Source: Gramella sp. AN32
Lineage (GTDB): Bacteria > Bacteroidota > Bacteroidia > Flavobacteriales > Flavobacteriaceae
Length of the DNA: 64,000 nucleotides
Direction: 5' to 3'
Assembly (NCBI RefSeq): GCF_023718305.1
Contig: NZ_QEYO01000015.1
Location: forward strand, 62,001 to 126,000
Within the stretch, counting starts at the first letter, position 1; each line of letters starts with the position of its first letter. Under the pieces are notes generated by a model. The model did not search any database. It saw only the letters and a list, made by a program, of their open reading frames with translations, and was not told the origin of the DNA. Shown piece by piece: positions 4,322 through 64,000 of this stretch. A program made the translations under genes and the position numbers.

Positions 4322-4354
4322 AGACCTCACAGGTTTTAAAAACCTGTGAGGTCT
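4322..4354. repeat. perfect 16-bp-arm palindrome between araD and araA
   Basis: Arms AGACCTCACAGGTTTT and AAAACCTGTGAGGTCT are perfectly complementary around one A. It sits 15 nt after the araD stop and a short TTTATAAT stretch follows, so it may work as a terminator or RNA-stability hairpin splitting the operon. Its core AGGTTTT...AAAACCT recurs at 38131 and 38402 with different outer bases, so it looks like a member of a dispersed intergenic palindrome family. Confidence 0.8.
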
Positions 4355-4399
4355 TTATAATAGTCACGAAAGAATCCAACTTATTTAATTTAAAAATTA

Positions 4400-5908
4400 A
4401 TGATCAATATTGAACAAAAAGAAGTCTGGTTTATCACCGGAAGTCAGCATTTATATGGAGAAGAAACCCTAAATCAGGTTGCGGCCAATTCAGCAGCAAT
4501 TGTAAAGGGTCTCAACGAATCCAGTTTAGTTCCCGTAAAGCTGGTACATAAAGACACGGTAAAAACTCCGGACGAGATTACTCAGGTGATGCTGGAGGCC
4601 AATAATAATACGGATTGTATCGGGATCATTACGTGGATGCATACGTTTTCACCTGCCAAAATGTGGATTAATGGTTTGAGTATTTTGAAAAAGCCTATCT
4701 GCCATTTGCATACGCAGTTCAATGCTGAAATTCCATGGAGCAAGATCGATATGGATTTTATGAATTTAAACCAGTCGGCTCATGGGGATCGTGAATTTGG
4801 GTTCATTATGTCGAGGATGCGTAAAAAACGAAAAGTGATCGTTGGTCACTGGAAAACCGAAGCTACTCAGCGAAAAGTGGGGAACTGGCTGCGTGTAGCC
4901 CTTGGATGGGATGAACTTCAAAATCTCAAGGTTGCCCGAATTGGGGATAATATGAGGCAGGTAGCCGTAACAGAAGGTGATAAGGTTGCCGCGCAGATCA
5001 AATTTGGGGTTTCGGTGAATGGCTATGATGCTTCAGATGTAGTAAAACATATCAATTCAGTTTCAGATTCAGATTTGAACAAATTGCTGAAAACTTACGA
5101 AAATGAATATGAACTCACTGCTTCTTTAAAGGAAGGCGGCGACAAAAGAGACTCGCTGATAGATGCAGCAAAAATAGAATTGGGGCTTCGCGCATTTTTA
5201 GAAGAAGGTGGATTTAAGGCCTTTACCGATACTTTTGAAAATTTGGGTGAACTAAAACAACTTCCCGGTCTTGCCGTGCAGAGACTAATGGCTGATGGGT
5301 ATGGTTTTGGGGCAGAAGGTGACTGGAAAACAGCGGCATTATTAAGAGCCATGAAAGTAATGACTCAGGGACTTGATGGAGGAACTTCTTTTATGGAAGA
5401 TTATACCAATCATTTTACTTCAGACCGTGATTATGTGTTAGGTTCCCATATGTTGGAAATTTGTCCCTCTATAGCCGATGCAAAACCTACCTGCGAGGTA
5501 CATCCTTTGGGAATTGGAGGGAAAGAAGATCCAGTAAGACTTGTTTTTAATTCTCCTAAAGGCCCGGCTTTAAATGCATCCCTTGTTGATATGGGGAATC
5601 GTTTCAGACTAATCGTAAATGAAGTTGAGGCAGTAGAACCAGAAGCAGATTTACCAAATTTACCCGTTGCACGCGTACTCTGGGATCCAAAACCAGATAT
5701 GGATGTAGCGGTAACTTCATGGATCCTTGCCGGGGGAGCACATCATACCGTCTATACCCAGGCCTTGACCACAGAATTTCTTGAAGATTTTGCAGATATT
5801 GCCGGGATAGAACTTTTGGTGATTGACGATAAAACAACGCTAAGGCAGTTTAAAGATACACTTAATGCTAATGAAGCTTATTACCATTTGTTCCAGCATG
5901 GAATGTAA
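4400..5908 (+). CDS. araA: L-arabinose isomerase
   Basis: Isomerises L-arabinose to L-ribulose, using a divalent metal. The 502-residue length is standard. Visible signatures are [13 protein letters not shown] at the N terminus, the [12 protein letters not shown] segment, and the metal/catalytic region with Glu in FMEDYTNHF and His in [11 protein letters not shown]. The start codon lies 45 nt after the palindrome behind araD. The next gene begins 18 nt downstream, so araA, galM, the symporter, transaldolase and GH97 gene form one tight run. No regulator of the AraC, GntR or LacI type is visible nearby; it may lie upstream of the window. Confidence 0.97.
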
Positions 5909-5926
5909 CCACTAAAAATTTATATT

Positions 5927-7114
5927 ATGAACAACCTTTATAAACCTCTGAAAATTTTAAGCCTTGCACTGGCTCTAATTTTTATCCAGTGTAAGGATGC
6001 GGAAAAAAATAAGGAACCTGAAACTAGTCCTAAAACAGATGGACCGGGAATGAAAATAGATCAAAGCGGTTTTGGTAAAACTGCCGACGGTAAAGAAGTG
6101 GAGAAATATATTATTTCCAATTCCGCAGGACTCGAAATGAGCGTAATTAGTTATGGCGGGATCATTACTTCTTTAAAGGTTCCTGATAAAAATGGGGAAT
6201 ATAAAGATGTAGTTCTTGGATTTGATAATATTCAGGATTATGAAAATGGCAGCCCTTATTTTGGGGCGATCATTGGTCGGTATGGAAACCGTATTGCCAA
6301 GGGGAGATTTTCGCTTGACGGAAAGGAATACAAATTAGATACGAATGATGGGCCCAATAGTCTGCATGGAGGGAATAAAGGTTTTGATAAGGTACTTTGG
6401 AATATTGAGCCAAGTTCAGGGGAAGATGAAGCCTCACTAGAGTTAAGCTATACCAGTAAAGATGGAGAAGGCGGTTACCCTGGAAACCTAGAAACTACCG
6501 TAACCTATACCCTGAATTCAAACAATGAGTTACATATCAAATATGAAGCGACTACCGATAAAAAAACCGTTGTAAACCTCACGCAACATTCCTATTTCAA
6601 CTTAACAGGTGATTTCAGTAAAAAAATCCTTGATCATGTAGTTGAAATAAATGCTGATGAATACCTGCCGGTAGATAAAACTTTAATCCCTACCGGGGAA
6701 CTTAAACCGGTAAAGGGAACTCCATTCGATTTTACTGAACCTGTAAAAATTGCCACCGGCATGGAGCAGGAAAATTCGAATGAACAGCTAAAAAGAGGTC
6801 CCGGCTTTGATCATTGCTGGATATTGAATGAACAGGATAGCGGAGTGCGATTTGCAGCTTCCGCCTATGAACCTGGGAGCGGTCGGTTTATGGAAGTTTA
6901 TACCAATGAACCAGCACTTCAGTTTTATATTGGTAATTTCCTGGACGGCACGTTGCCTGCCAAAGGTGGCGGAAATTATGAAAAACGTACCGGTTTCTGT
7001 ATGGAAACCCAGCACTATCCAGATTCACCAAACCAAAAGGATTTTCCTTCCGTAGTACTGGAACCGGGATCAACCTATACTTCTGAAACCTCTTATAAAT
7101 TCTCAGTTAAATAA
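5927..7114 (+). CDS. galM: aldose 1-epimerase, lipoprotein
   Basis: Interconverts alpha and beta anomers of aldoses such as arabinose. The first 22 residues form a lipoprotein signal ending IFIQC, so the enzyme is predicted to be tethered outside the inner membrane. The mature part has GalM motifs: GFDNIQDYENGSPYFGA, IGRYGNRIAKG, catalytic His221 in LTQHSYFNL and catalytic Glu379 in VVLEPGS. It lies between araA and the sugar symporter, starting 18 nt after araA and ending 1 nt before the symporter. The likely role is to supply the transporter with the preferred anomer; substrate is inferred from context. Confidence 0.93.
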   Translation: MNNLYKPLKILSLALALIFIQCKDAEKNKEPETSPKTDGPGMKIDQSGFGKTADGKEVEKYIISNSAGLEMSVISYGGIITSLKVPDKNGEYKDVVLGFDNIQDYENGSPYFGAIIGRYGNRIAKGRFSLDGKEYKLDTNDGPNSLHGGNKGFDKVLWNIEPSSGEDEASLELSYTSKDGEGGYPGNLETTVTYTLNSNNELHIKYEATTDKKTVVNLTQHSYFNLTGDFSKKILDHVVEINADEYLPVDKTLIPTGELKPVKGTPFDFTEPVKIATGMEQENSNEQLKRGPGFDHCWILNEQDSGVRFAASAYEPGSGRFMEVYTNEPALQFYIGNFLDGTLPAKGGGNYEKRTGFCMETQHYPDSPNQKDFPSVVLEPGSTYTSETSYKFSVK

Positions 7115-7115
7115 T

Positions 7116-8735
7116 ATGCAAATTTTAGATACATTAGACTGGATCACCATTTCGATATATTTCGCTGTGTTAGTGGGAATTGCGGTCTGGGTGATTAGAA
7201 AAAAACAGTCGAATACAGAAGATTATTTTTTAGCGGGTAGAAATGTTGGCTGGTTTGTAGTTGGTGCATCTATTTTCGCCTCCAATATTGGTTCGGAACA
7301 CGTTGTTGGGCTTGCCGGAGCTGGCGCAGGGGATAAACTACCCATGCTTATTTATGAAATACAGGCCTGGGTAGTATTAATATTAGGTTGGGTTTTTCTT
7401 CCCTTCTATGCCCGTAGTGGTGTTTTTACAATGCCTGAATTTCTGGAGAAACGATTTGATGCACGATCTCGCTGGGTCCTTTCAATATTCTCAATTATTG
7501 CCTATGTGCTTACCAAGATATCGGTAACTATTTATGCCGGTGGGATAGTAGTATCAGCTTTACTCGGAATAGATTTCTGGACTGGAGCTCTTGGTACAGT
7601 TATCCTAACGGGAATTTATACCGTTCTTGGCGGAATGCGTGCCGTGGTTTATACCGAAACCTTACAGGCGATTATTTTGGTAATTGGAGCGGCTGCACTT
7701 ACATTTATAGGTTTAGACAAAGTAGGGGGTTGGGAAAGTATGACCCAGACTGTTGGTCCCGAATACCTTGATATGTGGAGGCCGGCTACCGATCCCGATT
7801 TTCCGTGGCCTTCATTATTGATCACAAGTACTATTGTTGGAATCTGGTACTGGTGTACCGACCAATATATCGTTCAGCGCGCTCTAACAGCTAAGAACAT
7901 CAAAGAAGGACGAAGAGGTACTATTTTCGGCGCTTTGCTAAAATTGCTTCCTGTATTCTTATTCCTAATTCCGGGAATTATCGCGCTAACATTGAAGATG
8001 AGAGGAGAACTTCATTGGGATAGCCCGGATGAAGCTTTCCCGGTATTGATGAGTAATTTATTGCCTTCAGGACTTCGCGGACTGGTTGCCGCAGGATTAT
8101 TAGCAGCCCTTATGAGTTCCCTGGCTTCAGTATTTAACTCGTGCTCTACTTTATTTACGGTAGATATTTATAAAAAACTACGTCCCAATACCCCTGAAAA
8201 GAAACTTGTTCAGACGGGACAGATCGCCACGGTATTTATTGTAATTATCGGGATTATCTGGATCCCAATTATGGCAAATATCTCCGGAGTCTTGTATGAA
8301 TATTTACAAAGTGTCCAGTCGTATATCGCACCACCGATTACGGCAGTTTTCCTTCTCGGTATTTTCTACAAACGGATCAACTCAGAGGGCGCTTTAACCA
8401 CGCTGGTGGTTGGATTACTTGTGGGCGCATTGCGTATTGTTCTGGAAATAGTAAAAGATTCCCTTGATCCCGATAGTTTTTTGTTTCTGCTGGGTGATAT
8501 GAACTTCCTTTCCTTTGGGGCATGGTTCTTCCTTTTCTGTATTATATTGATCGTGGTGGTGAGTTTACTAACTCCTGCTCCTGCTGATGAAAAGATTGAG
8601 AACCTAACTTTTCAAACTATTTCAGCGGAAGAGAAAAGAAAAAACAAAACAAGTTATAACTGGAAAGATATCGCTGTGTCAATTTTAATATTGATTATAG
8701 TTGCCGGGGTGATGATATTCTTTAATGGAAATTAA
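7116..8735 (+). CDS. sodium/solute symporter (SSS family), probably arabinose importer
   Basis: An inner-membrane protein of 539 residues with about 14 hydrophobic helices. The N-terminal SSS pattern is clear: a helix, then EDYFLAGRNVGWFVVGASIFASNIGSEH, where the last segment is typical of SGLT-like sugar transporters. The central WYWCTDQYIVQRALTAKN motif is also a family hallmark. A final hydrophobic helix follows a charged cytoplasmic stretch. It is packed between galM (1 nt) and the transaldolase (6 nt) in the arabinose operon, so L-arabinose/Na+ uptake is the best guess; the substrate is inference from context. Confidence 0.9.
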   Translation: MQILDTLDWITISIYFAVLVGIAVWVIRKKQSNTEDYFLAGRNVGWFVVGASIFASNIGSEHVVGLAGAGAGDKLPMLIYEIQAWVVLILGWVFLPFYARSGVFTMPEFLEKRFDARSRWVLSIFSIIAYVLTKISVTIYAGGIVVSALLGIDFWTGALGTVILTGIYTVLGGMRAVVYTETLQAIILVIGAAALTFIGLDKVGGWESMTQTVGPEYLDMWRPATDPDFPWPSLLITSTIVGIWYWCTDQYIVQRALTAKNIKEGRRGTIFGALLKLLPVFLFLIPGIIALTLKMRGELHWDSPDEAFPVLMSNLLPSGLRGLVAAGLLAALMSSLASVFNSCSTLFTVDIYKKLRPNTPEKKLVQTGQIATVFIVIIGIIWIPIMANISGVLYEYLQSVQSYIAPPITAVFLLGIFYKRINSEGALTTLVVGLLVGALRIVLEIVKDSLDPDSFLFLLGDMNFLSFGAWFFLFCIILIVVVSLLTPAPADEKIENLTFQTISAEEKRKNKTSYNWKDIAVSILILIIVAGVMIFFNGN

Positions 8736-59387: not shown

Positions 59388-59434
59388 TACCTAGGAATGG
59401 GTATTTTATAGAGAAAGGATGTTAGTTAGATTTA
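59388..59434 (+). promoter_or_regulatory. TACCY-N6-GGGTA palindrome and -7 element of the DUF2135 lipoprotein gene
   Basis: TACCT-AGGAAT-GGGTA (59388-59403) sits inside larger arms AAAATACC / GGTATTTT. TAGATTTA (59427-59434) is one base off TAnnTTTG. The offset from palindrome start to -7 start is 39 nt. The same palindrome at the same offset occurs before the gene at 61425. The start codon follows 31 nt after the -7 element. Confidence 0.65.
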
Positions 59435-59464
59435 TGATTATCAATAGTTTAAATACTTTAAATC

Positions 59465-61003
59465 ATGAAAAATCTTTATTTATCTTTCTGTGTAGTAGTA
59501 ATGGTCTTAGCTGTGCAAAGTTGTGAAACACCTGATGATTCTGAATCTAATGGACAAACTGAAATTTTAGAAATTGGTTCAATAGAAAACCTAAAGGTTA
59601 TTCCCTATGAAATCTTTGAAATTCCGGTAAATAATCCTCCCGGGGTGGTTGGTGATTATAAATTATATTTTGGGGCTACTAAAGTAATTGTCTCTGAAAT
59701 TTTATCAGACGGTATTGAAATAGTCATTCCAAGGGATATTGCGGTTGGTTCTACAGATGCGGTCCTGAACTATAAAGAACAGGAATATCCTTTAGGTAGG
59801 GTCGAGGTGTTAAATTATAACAACTATTTTCCTGCAAATCTGGGTTATATTTTTCCTGAAAATGGAGAATATCCTATCATAATGGTAGATTCAGCCCAAA
59901 CAGTCATTACTCCACATGTTGTAGAGGGAAAAGTTGATAATATAAGTTTCCAGTTTAAGAATGGTACTAGCAGTCACTTAGAATTAAATGAACTTGGTCT
60001 GCCGAAGCAATTTTATAGTGAAAAGTTAAAGGTTATTTACGATAACTATGATTTTCAGAATAAAACAGTGAACATTGCTTATTACGTAGATGATGATATA
60101 GAAAATGCTGAATTTGAATATGCCGTAACTTTAAATCAGGAGGCATTGGAGTTATTGGAACAATCAAGAAACCAAAGTCGTAGTCAATCAAGCATTTCCA
60201 ATATGTTGGCCAATAGTATTAGTGCATCTATTAGCCTTGCTGCCTGTGCAGCAAGTATTGCTACAGCTCCAACGGGAATTGGACTAGCATTGGTGATGAT
60301 AAGTTGTAGCTCAGCGACTTATGATGCTATGAAATTAATAGATCCAGGCCTTAGTAATGAAGTGGCCAATAAGATGCAGGCATTCGTAGGTTTGGAAATG
60401 GATGCAATAGATTGTTTAACCTTACCTGTTCATGGAATGCCCACTCATGCTTTGGAATTTTATGGCGCTCTAAATGGCTGTATTAATACCATTATTGCAG
60501 GAGTGCAAGGAATTGGGGAAACGTATGATTATTATAACGCAGAAAGAGAAAGAATTTTGCAAAGTTATAGAAGCATGTTGAATTCTGGTTACGGTGATAT
60601 AAAAATTACCCTGAGTTGGGATACGGAAACCGATATTGATTTATGGGTAACAGATCCATTTTCTGAAAAGATCTGGTATGATAGCCCTTTTTCTTCGTCG
60701 GGTGGCGAATTAGATGTGGACAATGTAGAGGGATATGGGCCTGAGAATGTTTTTTGGCCAACCAATGAAGCTCCCTTTGGTACCTATACTGTGCAAATAC
60801 ATTACTATGGACCCGAAGATGGACCCGTAACAAATTGTAAGGTGGTAATTGATAATTTCGGGGTTCAAACAACTTATCATCAAGCTTTAACTCCAGACGG
60901 TTTAGCGACTATCGCAATTTTTGAAGCTGGAGCTCGTGGAATGCTTATCCAATCTGGGGAAATTTCATTGGTTACTAGTTCCGGTTTACCTTCAAAAAAC
61001 TGA
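59465..61003 (+). CDS. DUF2135-domain lipoprotein
   Basis: 512 residues, lipoprotein signal ending VQSC (Cys20). An N-terminal IPT/beta-sandwich-like part (about 28-120) is followed by a beta-rich region, a strongly hydrophobic Ala/Ser-rich segment at about 252-289 (with SLAACAASIATAPTGIGLAL) and a helical stretch. A DUF2135 domain (about 377-490) closes the protein, with DIKITLSWDTETDIDLWV, GGELDVDNVEGYGPENVFW and APFGTYTVQIHYYGP. DUF2135 (YfaP-like) is a secreted domain of unknown function. The hydrophobic core is unusual for a soluble lipoprotein. It shares an operator with the next gene. Confidence 0.82.
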   Translation: MKNLYLSFCVVVMVLAVQSCETPDDSESNGQTEILEIGSIENLKVIPYEIFEIPVNNPPGVVGDYKLYFGATKVIVSEILSDGIEIVIPRDIAVGSTDAVLNYKEQEYPLGRVEVLNYNNYFPANLGYIFPENGEYPIIMVDSAQTVITPHVVEGKVDNISFQFKNGTSSHLELNELGLPKQFYSEKLKVIYDNYDFQNKTVNIAYYVDDDIENAEFEYAVTLNQEALELLEQSRNQSRSQSSISNMLANSISASISLAACAASIATAPTGIGLALVMISCSSATYDAMKLIDPGLSNEVANKMQAFVGLEMDAIDCLTLPVHGMPTHALEFYGALNGCINTIIAGVQGIGETYDYYNAERERILQSYRSMLNSGYGDIKITLSWDTETDIDLWVTDPFSEKIWYDSPFSSSGGELDVDNVEGYGPENVFWPTNEAPFGTYTVQIHYYGPEDGPVTNCKVVIDNFGVQTTYHQALTPDGLATIAIFEAGARGMLIQSGEISLVTSSGLPSKN

Positions 61004-61027
61004 TAGGTTTTTTCTAAAAGCATAGGA

Positions 61028-61058
61028 AGAGCTATCATTTTTTGTGATAGCTCTTTTT
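61028..61058 (+). terminator. intrinsic terminator after the DUF2135 lipoprotein gene
   Basis: AGAGCTATCA and TGATAGCTCT pair perfectly across a 7-nt loop and are followed by TTTT. It lies 25 nt after the stop codon. Confidence 0.9.
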
Positions 61059-61308
61059 ATATAAATACGTACACAAGCCATCAGATAATTTTCATTGTTC
61101 CTGTTAGTAATGATCTTATTTTATAATCGTGAAACTTCCAAGCATTTTATCTTCGTTCAGTATTCAGTAGATCAATAATACTCTAGAGGGCTGGTGATCG
61201 AGTGGAAAAATTTAGGATCCAGATAGGAATAAGTATAAGATAGTACCATAGGAGTATCTCCGCTAGTGCCTATAGAATATTTCCTAAATGATTTTCAACA
61301 TACTAATT

Positions 61309-61355
61309 TACCCAGTAGTGGGTATTTTCTTGTGTTCACTTGCCTGGTAATTTTA
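61309..61355 (+). promoter_or_regulatory. TACCY-N6-GGGTA palindrome and -7 element of the barrel gene
   Basis: TACCC-AGTAGT-GGGTA (61309-61324) followed by TTTT matches the site at 59388 as TACCY-AGKART-GGGTATTTT. TAATTTTA (61348-61355) is one base off TAnnTTTG and begins 39 nt after the start of the palindrome, exactly as at 59388. The start codon is 69 nt further. Upstream 61059-61308 shows no gene or clear motif. Confidence 0.65.
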
Positions 61356-61424: not shown

Positions 61425-62096
61425 ATGAAAACTATTTTAAAATTTACGCTGGCTATGCTCATTATGGGTATTACAAATCAGGGGTTTTCCCAGAATGTTT
61501 CAGAGCAAACAGTTACTTCAGATCATGAGGTAAATGTGAGGCCAATCCGGATCGGGTTTAAATTAGGTTTTCCCAATTTAATTGGCGGGAACCTTGAGTA
61601 TGTATTGCCACTATTAAATAATAAGATTGCCGTAAGCGCCGATTATTCCAGGTTTAAATCTTCCAACATTATAAAAGCTTTGGGTGTTGAAGATACAGAT
61701 GATGTTGATATGAGCGTCAGTTTTCTGGAAGGGGGCTTAAATTATTACATTTTTAAACCGGGCGATGGCCTATACGCCGGGGTAAGTTACAACCGGTTAA
61801 AATTTGATGGGACTATCTTCGATTTTTTTGAGTCTCAAACAGAAGAAGGGAAATACGGTGATGGGATCGTAGATTTCACCAATAGCTCTTTCAACCTTAA
61901 AATTGGGATAAAAATGGGTGGCCTGTTTTATTTTAGGCCGGAAGTGGGGTATGCATTCACAGCTTTTCCAACGGAAATTCCGGTTGAGGTAAGGTTTGAA
62001 GATGGCACTACGGAACAACAAACCTATGATACCTATACCACCGATATTATTCATAATGGACTTATTTTCAACATAGGCCTCGGTTTCGCATTTTAA
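61425..62096 (+). CDS. outer-membrane beta-barrel-like protein, about 220 residues
   Basis: 223 residues, signal peptide ending QGFSQ. Alternating strands and a final IFNIGLGFAF with terminal Phe suggest a small 8-strand-like outer-membrane barrel; strands such as IGFKLGFPNLIGGNLEYVL and GLYAGVSYNRLKF are typical. No family name can be given. It follows the second TACCY palindrome and is 21 nt before a PEGA-domain gene, so the two are one unit. Confidence 0.75.
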   Translation: MKTILKFTLAMLIMGITNQGFSQNVSEQTVTSDHEVNVRPIRIGFKLGFPNLIGGNLEYVLPLLNNKIAVSADYSRFKSSNIIKALGVEDTDDVDMSVSFLEGGLNYYIFKPGDGLYAGVSYNRLKFDGTIFDFFESQTEEGKYGDGIVDFTNSSFNLKIGIKMGGLFYFRPEVGYAFTAFPTEIPVEVRFEDGTTEQQTYDTYTTDIIHNGLIFNIGLGFAF

Positions 62097-62117: not shown

Positions 62118-62816
62118 ATGAAAAATCAAATTTTACATGTAACGTATTTATTTTTAGTATTTAGCCTATGCTCAGTTCAGGCAAGCAATAAGGTTTTGTT
62201 AGACGACTACGGAAAGAAAAAAATACAGGTAAGTACCTCCCAGGCCGATGCAGAAATAATTGTTAATGGAAAAATGGTCGGGAAAGGATCAGCAGAAGTT
62301 TTAGTGGCTAAAGATGATTGTGTCATGGTTACTGCTAAAAAAGTAGGCTACTTAACAGAGCAAATTGAATTTTGTAATCAAAAGGGAATGGCCAGCCCTC
62401 CAAAAACACATTATTTTGAAATGCGGGCCGATGATGCCTTTGATGCTTCTGTTCAAACTGATATCGCCAATGTGGATATCGAAATTCAGGTAGATCAAAT
62501 GAATAAAGATAAATCCTGGAAGCTTATCAACCAGATTGTCCTGAATTATATTGATGTTATAGAAATGACCGACAAGGAAACAGGCTATTTAAGGACCGCA
62601 TGGTCTCTGCAAACATTTGAACAGAATACTATACGGACTAGAATGATCATTAAAGAATCTTCTAATGATCCTTTGGTTTTCAAAGTAAAACTGGTAAGTG
62701 AAGAATCTGGGGGTTCCATGACCAGCGTAAAAGACGATCATTTATATAAAGAATGGGATCGGGTACTTAGAAGTTACAATGATGCCATTTCAGAATTCCA
62801 GGATAGGGTAAAATAA
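62118..62816 (+). CDS. PEGA-like domain protein with NlpB/BamC-like C-terminal part
   Basis: 232 residues with a signal peptide ending SVQAS. A PEGA-like surface-binding domain (about 34-100: IQVSTSQADAEIIVNGKMVG, VMVTAKKVGYLTEQIEF) is followed by a helix-grip-like half (about 118-225). The segment KLINQIVLNYIDVIEM then TDKETGYLRTAW resembles the repeated domain of BamC/NlpB lipoproteins, but the resemblance is by eye only. It has no lipobox. It follows the barrel gene by 21 nt and may interact with it. Confidence 0.65.
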   Translation: MKNQILHVTYLFLVFSLCSVQASNKVLLDDYGKKKIQVSTSQADAEIIVNGKMVGKGSAEVLVAKDDCVMVTAKKVGYLTEQIEFCNQKGMASPPKTHYFEMRADDAFDASVQTDIANVDIEIQVDQMNKDKSWKLINQIVLNYIDVIEMTDKETGYLRTAWSLQTFEQNTIRTRMIIKESSNDPLVFKVKLVSEESGGSMTSVKDDHLYKEWDRVLRSYNDAISEFQDRVK

Positions 62817-63090: not shown

Positions 63091-63486
63091 ATGGGAAATT
63101 CAAATTTAAAAGAATATAAACGTACCGAGTTTGGGATCGATCAAAAGAAAAATAGCTTCCAGATTACTACTAAAGATGGAAAAGATATCTATAAAAATAT
63201 AAAATTGGATTTTCATTTTCCTTCCGAATTCAGGTATAGGAATCAATGGGATATCGATGGGGAGGAGCTTAAATTATATTTTAAAGGTGGTACAGCTAAC
63301 GACACCAATGAGGATTTAATCAAGTTATCCAATAGCGAACGTTCGGAGACTATAAATGAGAACGTGGAGTCCAGGGATATTCCTGTAGTGAAAAAATTAA
63401 GGATATGTTTTGTCCGGGATCAAAATGAAGATGGATCGGGATTTCTTCCGGAAACTACGGGAGGCGGAATCCTTGTTGGTACTTAA
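63091..63486 (+). CDS. hypothetical protein, 131 residues
   Basis: No signal peptide and no recognised family. It is Lys/Asp/Glu-rich with two beta-like stretches (NSFQITTKDGKDIYKNIKLD, VKKLRICFVRD) and ends in a flexible tail TTGGGILVGT. It precedes the repeat-protein gene by 2 nt, which suggests a shared transcript, and stands in the uncharacterised envelope cluster. A cytoplasmic partner of the downstream sensor-like protein is one guess. Confidence 0.6.
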   Translation: MGNSNLKEYKRTEFGIDQKKNSFQITTKDGKDIYKNIKLDFHFPSEFRYRNQWDIDGEELKLYFKGGTANDTNEDLIKLSNSERSETINENVESRDIPVVKKLRICFVRDQNEDGSGFLPETTGGGILVGT

Positions 63487-63488
63487 AA

Positions 63489-64000
63489 TTGAAAATTACT
63501 TTACAACATATCATGCTGCCTATAGCAAGTTTATTACTTGCTGCCTTTTCGTATGGTCAAAATCCGGCGTTTGGAGAGATCGATTCTCTTCTCAAAATCA
63601 GGGAAACCACAAAGGCATTTGCCCGACTGGAAAAAGTGGATTCCATCAATTTAAATCCTGCCCAAAAAGCGGAATATTATTACTTACTGGGTACCGCCGA
63701 AAGCCTCGATAACCAATCTCATAAAAGTTTCGATCACTGGCTCAAGGCGCGTAAAATCTTTCGGGAACTTGATAGCCTTGGCCGGGTGGCTCAAATCAAT
63801 TTGCAGATTGTCGAGACGATTAATGCTACTAATTATTTGGAATTGGATATAAGCCCGTTTATGGATGAATACCTCGATTATGCGGAAGAACAGGGTAGTC
63901 CCAGACTTTTGTCCATTGCCTATATGCAGCTGGCAAAAGTCTTTATTGAAACCGATTCGATCCAATCCCGAAACTTTTTTCAGAAAGCACTCGCAGAAAA
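63489..64000 (+). CDS. secreted helical-repeat (TPR-like) protein, 3' end cut by the window
   Basis: 170 codons are open to the window end. From the TTG at 63489 the product starts MKITLQHIMLPIASLLLAAF and has a signal peptide ending SYGQ; from the in-frame ATG at 63513 the basic N-region would be lost, so I prefer the TTG, 2 nt after the previous stop. The mature part shows TPR-like helix pairs: KAEYYYLLGTAESLDNQ, HWLKARKIFRELDSLGRVAQI, SIAYMQLAKVFIETD. This layout is typical of Flavobacterial proteins with periplasmic TPR, a membrane helix and a LuxR-type HTH or kinase, but that part is outside the window. Confidence 0.7.
   Translation, partial: MKITLQHIMLPIASLLLAAFSYGQNPAFGEIDSLLKIRETTKAFARLEKVDSINLNPAQKAEYYYLLGTAESLDNQSHKSFDHWLKARKIFRELDSLGRVAQINLQIVETINATNYLELDISPFMDEYLDYAEEQGSPRLLSIAYMQLAKVFIETDSIQSRNFFQKALAE

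Follow-up and report, generated by a model that had tools for sequence, protein, structure and literature searches.

The 64-kb window analyzed here (the whole 64,000-nt stretch of Gramella sp. AN32 DNA, numbered from its first letter) ends in a run of forward-strand envelope genes followed by the start of a two-component system. A gene for a 512-aa putative lipoprotein (59465..61003; weak DUF2135 match below cut-off) is followed by a strong hairpin and a T run (61027..61055), which folding and a terminator scan identify as its probable terminator. Next come genes for a 223-aa beta-barrel-like outer membrane protein (OMP; 61425..62096, OMP_b-brl match below cut-off) and, 21 nt downstream, a 232-aa PEGA-like protein (62118..62816; PEGA match below cut-off). 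A small variable ORF of 131 aa, here called X (63091..63486, with the C-terminal sequence PETTGGGILVGT), precedes a TPR histidine kinase gene, which starts at TTG 63489 or ATG 63513, occupies the end of the window with its 5′ part (63489..64000), and extends past the window end to about 65258 (same numbering). The next gene lies beyond the window end (about 65255-65872; L016:2756-3373) and has as its 205-aa product a response regulator of the REC-GerE type. Downstream of the regulator gene is a type II-C-like CRISPR locus, with a cas9-like frame in two same-frame ORFs (L016:3861-4292 and 4329-8549; 143 and 1406 aa) and then genes resembling cas1 and cas2 as well as a repeat-like ORF, all named from reading the sequences. 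None of the four window genes submitted to PADLOC had a match.

The kinase contains TPR, HisKA_3, and HATPase_c domains by Pfam, and reading its sequence by eye suggests a signal peptide and a membrane-spanning stretch. The first-pass annotation had described the gene at 63489 as sensor-like with helical repeats and as a possible DNA-binding protein; the sensor with helical repeats is borne out, but the kinase shows no HTH domain, which leaves the response regulator from the next gene as the likely DNA-binding protein. This protein is a NarL/FixJ-type response regulator, with REC (PF00072, E value 3.4e-26) and LuxR-type HTH GerE (PF00196, E value 3.6e-18) domains above cut-off. Its residues E8 D9, D54, and K104, which correspond to the conserved receiver residues, are invariant in 12 aligned orthologues.

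Two similar 16-bp palindromes precede the envelope genes on the forward strand. The first, TACCTAGGAATGGGTA (59388..59403), begins 77 nt before the ATG of the lipoprotein gene, and the second, TACCCAGTAGTGGGTA (61309..61324), lies ahead of the OMP-PEGA pair; they start 274 and 305 nt, respectively, past the upstream gene. The copies are identical at 13 of 16 bases, each is directly followed by TTTT, and each has a −7 box, TAGATTTA (59427..59434) or TAATTTTA (61348..61355), whose start is exactly 39 nt from the palindrome start. The palindrome positions, the shared bases, the TTTT, and the 39-nt offset agree with the first-pass annotation, as does the presence of envelope genes behind both sites (several of their Pfam matches are below cut-off). 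The flavobacterial sigma-A −7 box, TAnnTTTG, occupies −12 to −5 according to PMC9723704. Placing the window boxes accordingly puts the dyad at −51 to −36 with its center at −43.5, and yields predicted start sites at 59439 and 61360, the positions that the annotation had proposed. Both sites carry TTT at −35 to −33.

The combination of dyad, N23, and TAnnTTTR matched the window just twice, at 59388 and 61309, and matched none of 60 windows simulated under a first-order Markov model. The bare pattern proposed in the annotation gave 3 strand-hits, with 61309 scored on each strand; the expectation from shuffles was 0.20, and 1 of 100 shuffles reached 3 hits. Across the 4.6-Mb genome, TACCYN6RGGTA occurred 27 times compared with 26 for reversed controls, and the looser TACCN8GGTA occurred 78 times compared with 113. 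The bare dyad is thus not enriched in this genome, and the loose form was dropped as a signal. One word, TACCTTTAAGTAGGTA, was found seven times on either strand (contigs C3, C18, C23, C25, C27, C29, and C30 of the genome, G000), in some cases near contig ends; these recurrences are probably a repeated element, and they inflate the bare-dyad count of 27. When the −7 box at offset 39 was included, 4 sites remained compared with 0 for the control. The specific element is therefore the dyad with a −7 box at offset 39 (hereafter a full site), and the bare dyad alone carries no signal.

Regulator orthologues of at least 70% identity were found in 9 of 24 genus genomes, including the genome studied here, and at an E value of 1e-70 or better the regulator was present in 57/397 family genomes and 46 of the 237 genera sampled. 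We collected 49 regulator loci: the locus described above, the remaining 8 from the genus, and those of 40 out of 55 further family genomes, taken best-scoring first (G385 was skipped because it shares a genus with another). These loci were searched with a strict dyad, TACCY-N6-RGGTA, and a relaxed one, T[AC]CCY-N6-RGG[TG]A, in which at most one end is relaxed. Frequent copies inside genes or at random distances from promoters had been named in the annotation as counterevidence. Only 1 of the 83 relaxed dyads in the 49 loci lay within an ORF of at least 100 aa, although such ORFs cover 86% of the DNA, and a TAnnTTTR box stood at offset 39 in 39 of the 83, whereas every other offset in the range 16 to 61 was represented no more than twice. 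Allowing one −7 mismatch raised the count at offset 39 to 68/83, compared with 1 to 8 elsewhere. The spacer is equally constrained: strict halves were separated by 6 nt at 64 sites (63 of them intergenic), never by 5 or 7, and by each of the other lengths from 1 to 14 at 1 to 6 sites. In eight loci (L108, L110, L120, L130, L132, L139, L142, and L145), the dyads end in GGGGA instead of GGGTA, with the −7 box still at offset 39.

These sites are concentrated around the regulator gene. A strict dyad lay within 150 bp after the stop codon of 22/50 regulator genes (30/50 for the relaxed dyad) compared with 3/428 other genes in the same loci, and many dyads begin 2 to 35 nt past the regulator stop. 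In the 40 family genomes, 22 of the 47 strict full sites fell in the 0.33% of DNA surrounding the regulator, where 0.16 were expected. A relaxed dyad linked to a −7 box with at most one mismatch was present in 34/49 loci, pointing outward after the regulator in 25, into the operon in 17 (dyad within 1.5 kb upstream), and both ways in 8.

The family-wide scan suggested in the annotation gave 222 full sites at offset 39, in 112 of 397 genomes, compared with 19 control matches. At least one full site was present in 34/57 regulator-bearing genomes compared with 78/340 others. A scan of 120 family genomes for −7 boxes at offsets 33 to 45 placed 71 of 117 matches at 39, 11 at 38, and at most 6 at each other offset. 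Among 345 phylum genomes, a full site occurred in 29 (same family, 10/38; order, 1/8; class, 10/39; others, 8/260, counted by hand from the listing), and the control matched in 5. The best 80 of more than 573 loci from a contig search of named genomes, which include Kordia algicida, Zunongwangia mangrovi, Aquimarina, Tenacibaculum, Winogradskyella, and Nonlabens, contained 64 loci at ≥50% identity; removal of 7 that repeat earlier loci (exact 100-base match) left 57. These 57 new loci from the best 80 held 57 strict dyads and 0 reversed controls, with 27 full sites at offset 39 in 20 loci and at most 3 boxes at any other offset. Of the loci in the best 80 with less than 50% identity, 2/16 had a full site.

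The dyad consensus is aaaTACCCA-nTAn-TGGGTAttt. At the positions left free by the search pattern, 72 distinct full sites were A-rich at −5 to −1 before the dyad, favored C over T at dyad position 4 (68%), and had A at position 5 (53%), a T-A center (57/68%), and T at position 10 (78%). Relative to the predicted starts, the −7 box (TAnnTTTR) has a fixed place, with its last base divided between A (51%) and G (49%), and T occupies −35 to −33 in 94/74/62% of sites. The claim that these promoters lack a −33 element thus holds in part: the −33 boxes are degenerate, but TTT (36/72 sites) or TTG (12/72) at −35 to −33 abuts the dyad.

An ORF of at least 60 aa stood behind 66 of the 72 full sites, at a median of 77 nt from dyad start to ATG, and a crude rule marked a signal peptide in 35 of these 66. 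Pfam (E value of 0.001) matched 9 of 20 target proteins, leaving 11 without a match; the matches comprised LRR or FG-GAP proteins with a T9SS sorting tail, Kelch, DUF4831, and CarboxypepD_reg, and PEGA and OMP matches were below cut-offs. Homologues of the window targets also have dyads: a G154 homologue of the OMP is preceded by a dyad whose −7 box stands at offset 40, and a homologue of the PEGA-like protein (59% identity, in G102) lies behind a full site of its own. The OMP was dropped as a locus marker because of its patchy distribution (14/149 family and 4/24 genus genomes), and a dyad scan around its two paralogues on contig C4 found none. Each of these two paralogues (L039; G000:C4:14000-32000) adjoins a short protein that matches the regulator, probably its GerE domain.

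Based on the sites themselves, their fixed offset and spacer, their intergenic location, and their association with the regulator, all of which can be read directly from the DNA, we consider it likely that the dyad is the operator of the REC-GerE regulator paired with the TPR kinase, and that it serves to activate surface and lipoprotein genes and often the regulator's own operon. The binding protein, its dependence on phosphorylation, the activation, and the signal are what we infer from these patterns. The periplasmic-TPR sensor kinase would phosphorylate the regulator, whose dimer would then occupy the inverted repeat of 16 bp (−51 to −36) beside the −33 region. From there it would bring sigma-A RNA polymerase to promoters that have a good TAnnTTTR but a degenerate −33 box. 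In the genome studied here, the outcome would be the switching on of the neighboring envelope genes (the lipoprotein and the OMP-PEGA pair); in relatives, the regulator's own operon and the gene just downstream would also be activated. A fixed distance between dyad and box argues for contact with the polymerase and against plain repression, and the conservation of the 39-nt offset across the Flavobacteriaceae supports the activator site near −43 that the annotation had postulated.

Several observations count against this explanation, among them the lack of bare-dyad enrichment in this genome. The kinase-regulator operon studied here has no dyad immediately on either side and is one of 15/49 loci that lack a promoter-linked dyad of the kind counted above, and 23/57 regulator-bearing genomes have no strict full site. 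A third full site in the same genome (L017:6492-6507; G000:C8:17491) is divergent from another GerE two-component pair. A GerE gene was found within 1.5 kb of only 8/30 family and 4/17 phylum site loci, compared with 0/21 random dyads from the genome studied here and 1/14 OMP loci. The promoter at C8:17491 points at a lipoprotein-like ORF with a stop after about 30 codons.

The adjacency of C8:17491 to a different GerE pair also fits a rival explanation, which we regard as possible but clearly less probable, in which the operator is bound mainly by other GerE/LuxR-type regulators, single-component or paralogous, and the pair described here is one of several users. Nonorthologous GerE proteins adjoin some sites (L152, L154, L158, L159, L168, L187, L197, and L198), and 150 of the 222 full sites lie in genomes that lack the regulator at 1e-70. 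The clustering of full sites in the small fraction of DNA around this regulator argues otherwise, as does a closer look at the 30 site-richest regulator-negative genomes. The regulator was detected at 1e-48 in 13 of these, several times adjoining a site (G076, G012, G041, and G416), compared with 0 of 30 “negative” genomes without sites, picked down the list. Even at 1e-48 it was absent from the other 17 site-richest genomes, so other proteins may share the site.

The remaining readings were rejected based on the fixed offset, the spacer, and the family-wide counts. A repressor bound at −43 might block the promoter by keeping polymerase away from the adjoining −33 region, and NarL can act as an activator or a repressor according to PMC7419079. 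Repression does not need exact spacing, however, and the strong preference for offset 39 and degenerate −33 boxes like those of activator-dependent promoters make this improbable. It is much less plausible still that the palindromes are intrinsic terminators (A-tract, hairpin, and T-tract) of the upstream gene, even though the dyad RNA folds, 61309 passes a simple terminator scan, and the dyads are often close behind the regulator stop. Intrinsic terminators are gene-end hairpins with a T run and no fixed downstream promoter; the dyads have a −7 box exactly 39 nt on, a spacer of 6 but never 5 or 7, and stem ends set by sequence, and the window sites lie hundreds of nucleotides past the previous gene. 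The lipoprotein gene is already followed by a strong terminator-like hairpin (61027) and would not need the 61309 dyad for termination. That two similar words arose by chance in AT-rich intergenic DNA fits the control-like frequency of bare dyads in this genome but is contradicted by the family-wide statistics and by the recurrence of the offset in independent genomes, and we give it almost no weight.

One of the closest known arrangements is that of NarX/NarL in Escherichia coli. According to PMC7419079 and PMC9314961, one 7-2-7 site is enough for NarL to activate ogt1052, where it lies at −44.5 (32 bp above the −10 box), and yeaR is activated from a NarL site just above the −35 box; PMC4886647 gives the half-site heptamer as TACYYMT. 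The system described here shares a REC-GerE regulator and a 16-bp inverted repeat with TACCY ends that can be read as 7-2-7, in keeping with the NarL geometry of length 16 and fixed spacing (spacer 6 in the 64 sites counted above). Its single site likewise abuts the −35 region, with its center 31 bp above the −7 box compared with the 32 bp given for ogt1052. The TACYYMT heptamer, in contrast, was present in 30/144 halves and in both halves of 3/72 sites, and the NCBIfam NarL equivalog model scored 118 bits on the regulator against a threshold of 250. The TAnnTTTR box, the TPR sensor, and the surface-protein targets also differ from NarX/NarL. Two of the three residues that we take to be NarL base contacts differ in the aligned regulator, and we know of no link between this system and nitrate.

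A second comparison is with FimS-FimR of Porphyromonas gingivalis, a periplasmic-TPR kinase with a regulator that activates surface structures by promoter binding, as outlined in PMC1974823 and PMC11053733. Both are Bacteroidota kinases with TPR repeats and a partner regulator, and in the kinase described here a periplasmic sensor is suggested by the signal peptide and membrane-spanning stretch read by eye. The targets of FimS are fimbriae, however, and the FimS equivalog reached 32.5 bits on the kinase, with the best stretch in the TPR region, against a threshold of 600. Since the REC-GerE architecture and the geometry agree with NarL whereas orthology, heptamer, and the FimS model do not fit, we describe the system as probably working like NarL at ogt, by the same kind of activation judged by analogy, and do not file it as NarL or FimR. 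By sequence, the nearest relative of the regulator with a solved structure is VraR (5hev, E value 5.1e-39). VraR/LiaR-type regulons are envelope-related.

The kinase-regulator module is notable for its strikingly variable first gene. A small ORF preceded the kinase in 44/49 loci (L110 has a second kinase instead), where X was taken as the longest ORF of at least 70 aa whose end is no more than 100 nt from the kinase start, a rule that may include chance ORFs. These 44 ORFs fell into 22 groups unrelated by blastp (E value 1e-4), and a pattern scan found a GGGILVG-like C-terminal tail in 12. Among the 64 named-genome loci retained from the best 80, an X-type ORF was present in 44, in 17 groups that include the X of the window; 18 of the 20 members of the largest group were aligned, and all keep one C-terminal cysteine. 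Across the X ORFs of the window (63091-63486), L072-L147, and L201-L264, some carry recurrent tails that are GGGILVGTGG-like or have a conserved Cys before a hydrophobic strand. Matches to X were found in 8/24 genus genomes, each as one copy adjoining the kinase. The structure model of the window X was poor (mean pLDDT of 36.9 from a two-row alignment), whereas that of the L207 X, which is from another group and belongs to the largest one mentioned above, was all-beta with the tail as its last strand (mean pLDDT of 83.1). Foldseek returned no match to the L207 model at an E value of ≤0.001 (best 0.031, NigD-like 3qwn), and the best VIA match (Z score of 4.7) was an adaptin ear (3zhf; rmsd of 3.9, 99 aligned). 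A PADLOC match of LmuB to the X of a relative (E value 0.0035) was weak and was disregarded.

A broader and quite speculative reading, which we hold less probable than not by a wide measure, is that the operator is part of a family-wide, diversifying surface-display module. The TPR kinase and regulator would be its conserved core, and the hypervariable X, which often conserves its C-terminal tail (PETxGGGILVGTGG-like, or Cys plus a hydrophobic strand), might act as a sensor partner or ligand that the module itself encodes. One fixed promoter architecture would serve a variable cargo of lipoproteins, T9SS LRR proteins, and OMPs, surface effectors that would be rapidly exchanged as in kin recognition or conflict systems.

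Our search of the open-access literature, which covered titles and abstract beginnings, found no description of the operator, a scope too narrow to call it undescribed. Under the preferred explanation, that of an operator for the REC-GerE regulator, these results define, precisely enough for sequence searches, the operator and promoter architecture of a two-component system present in 46/237 sampled genera of the family, so that regulons of uncharacterized flavobacterial surface proteins may be predictable from sequence.
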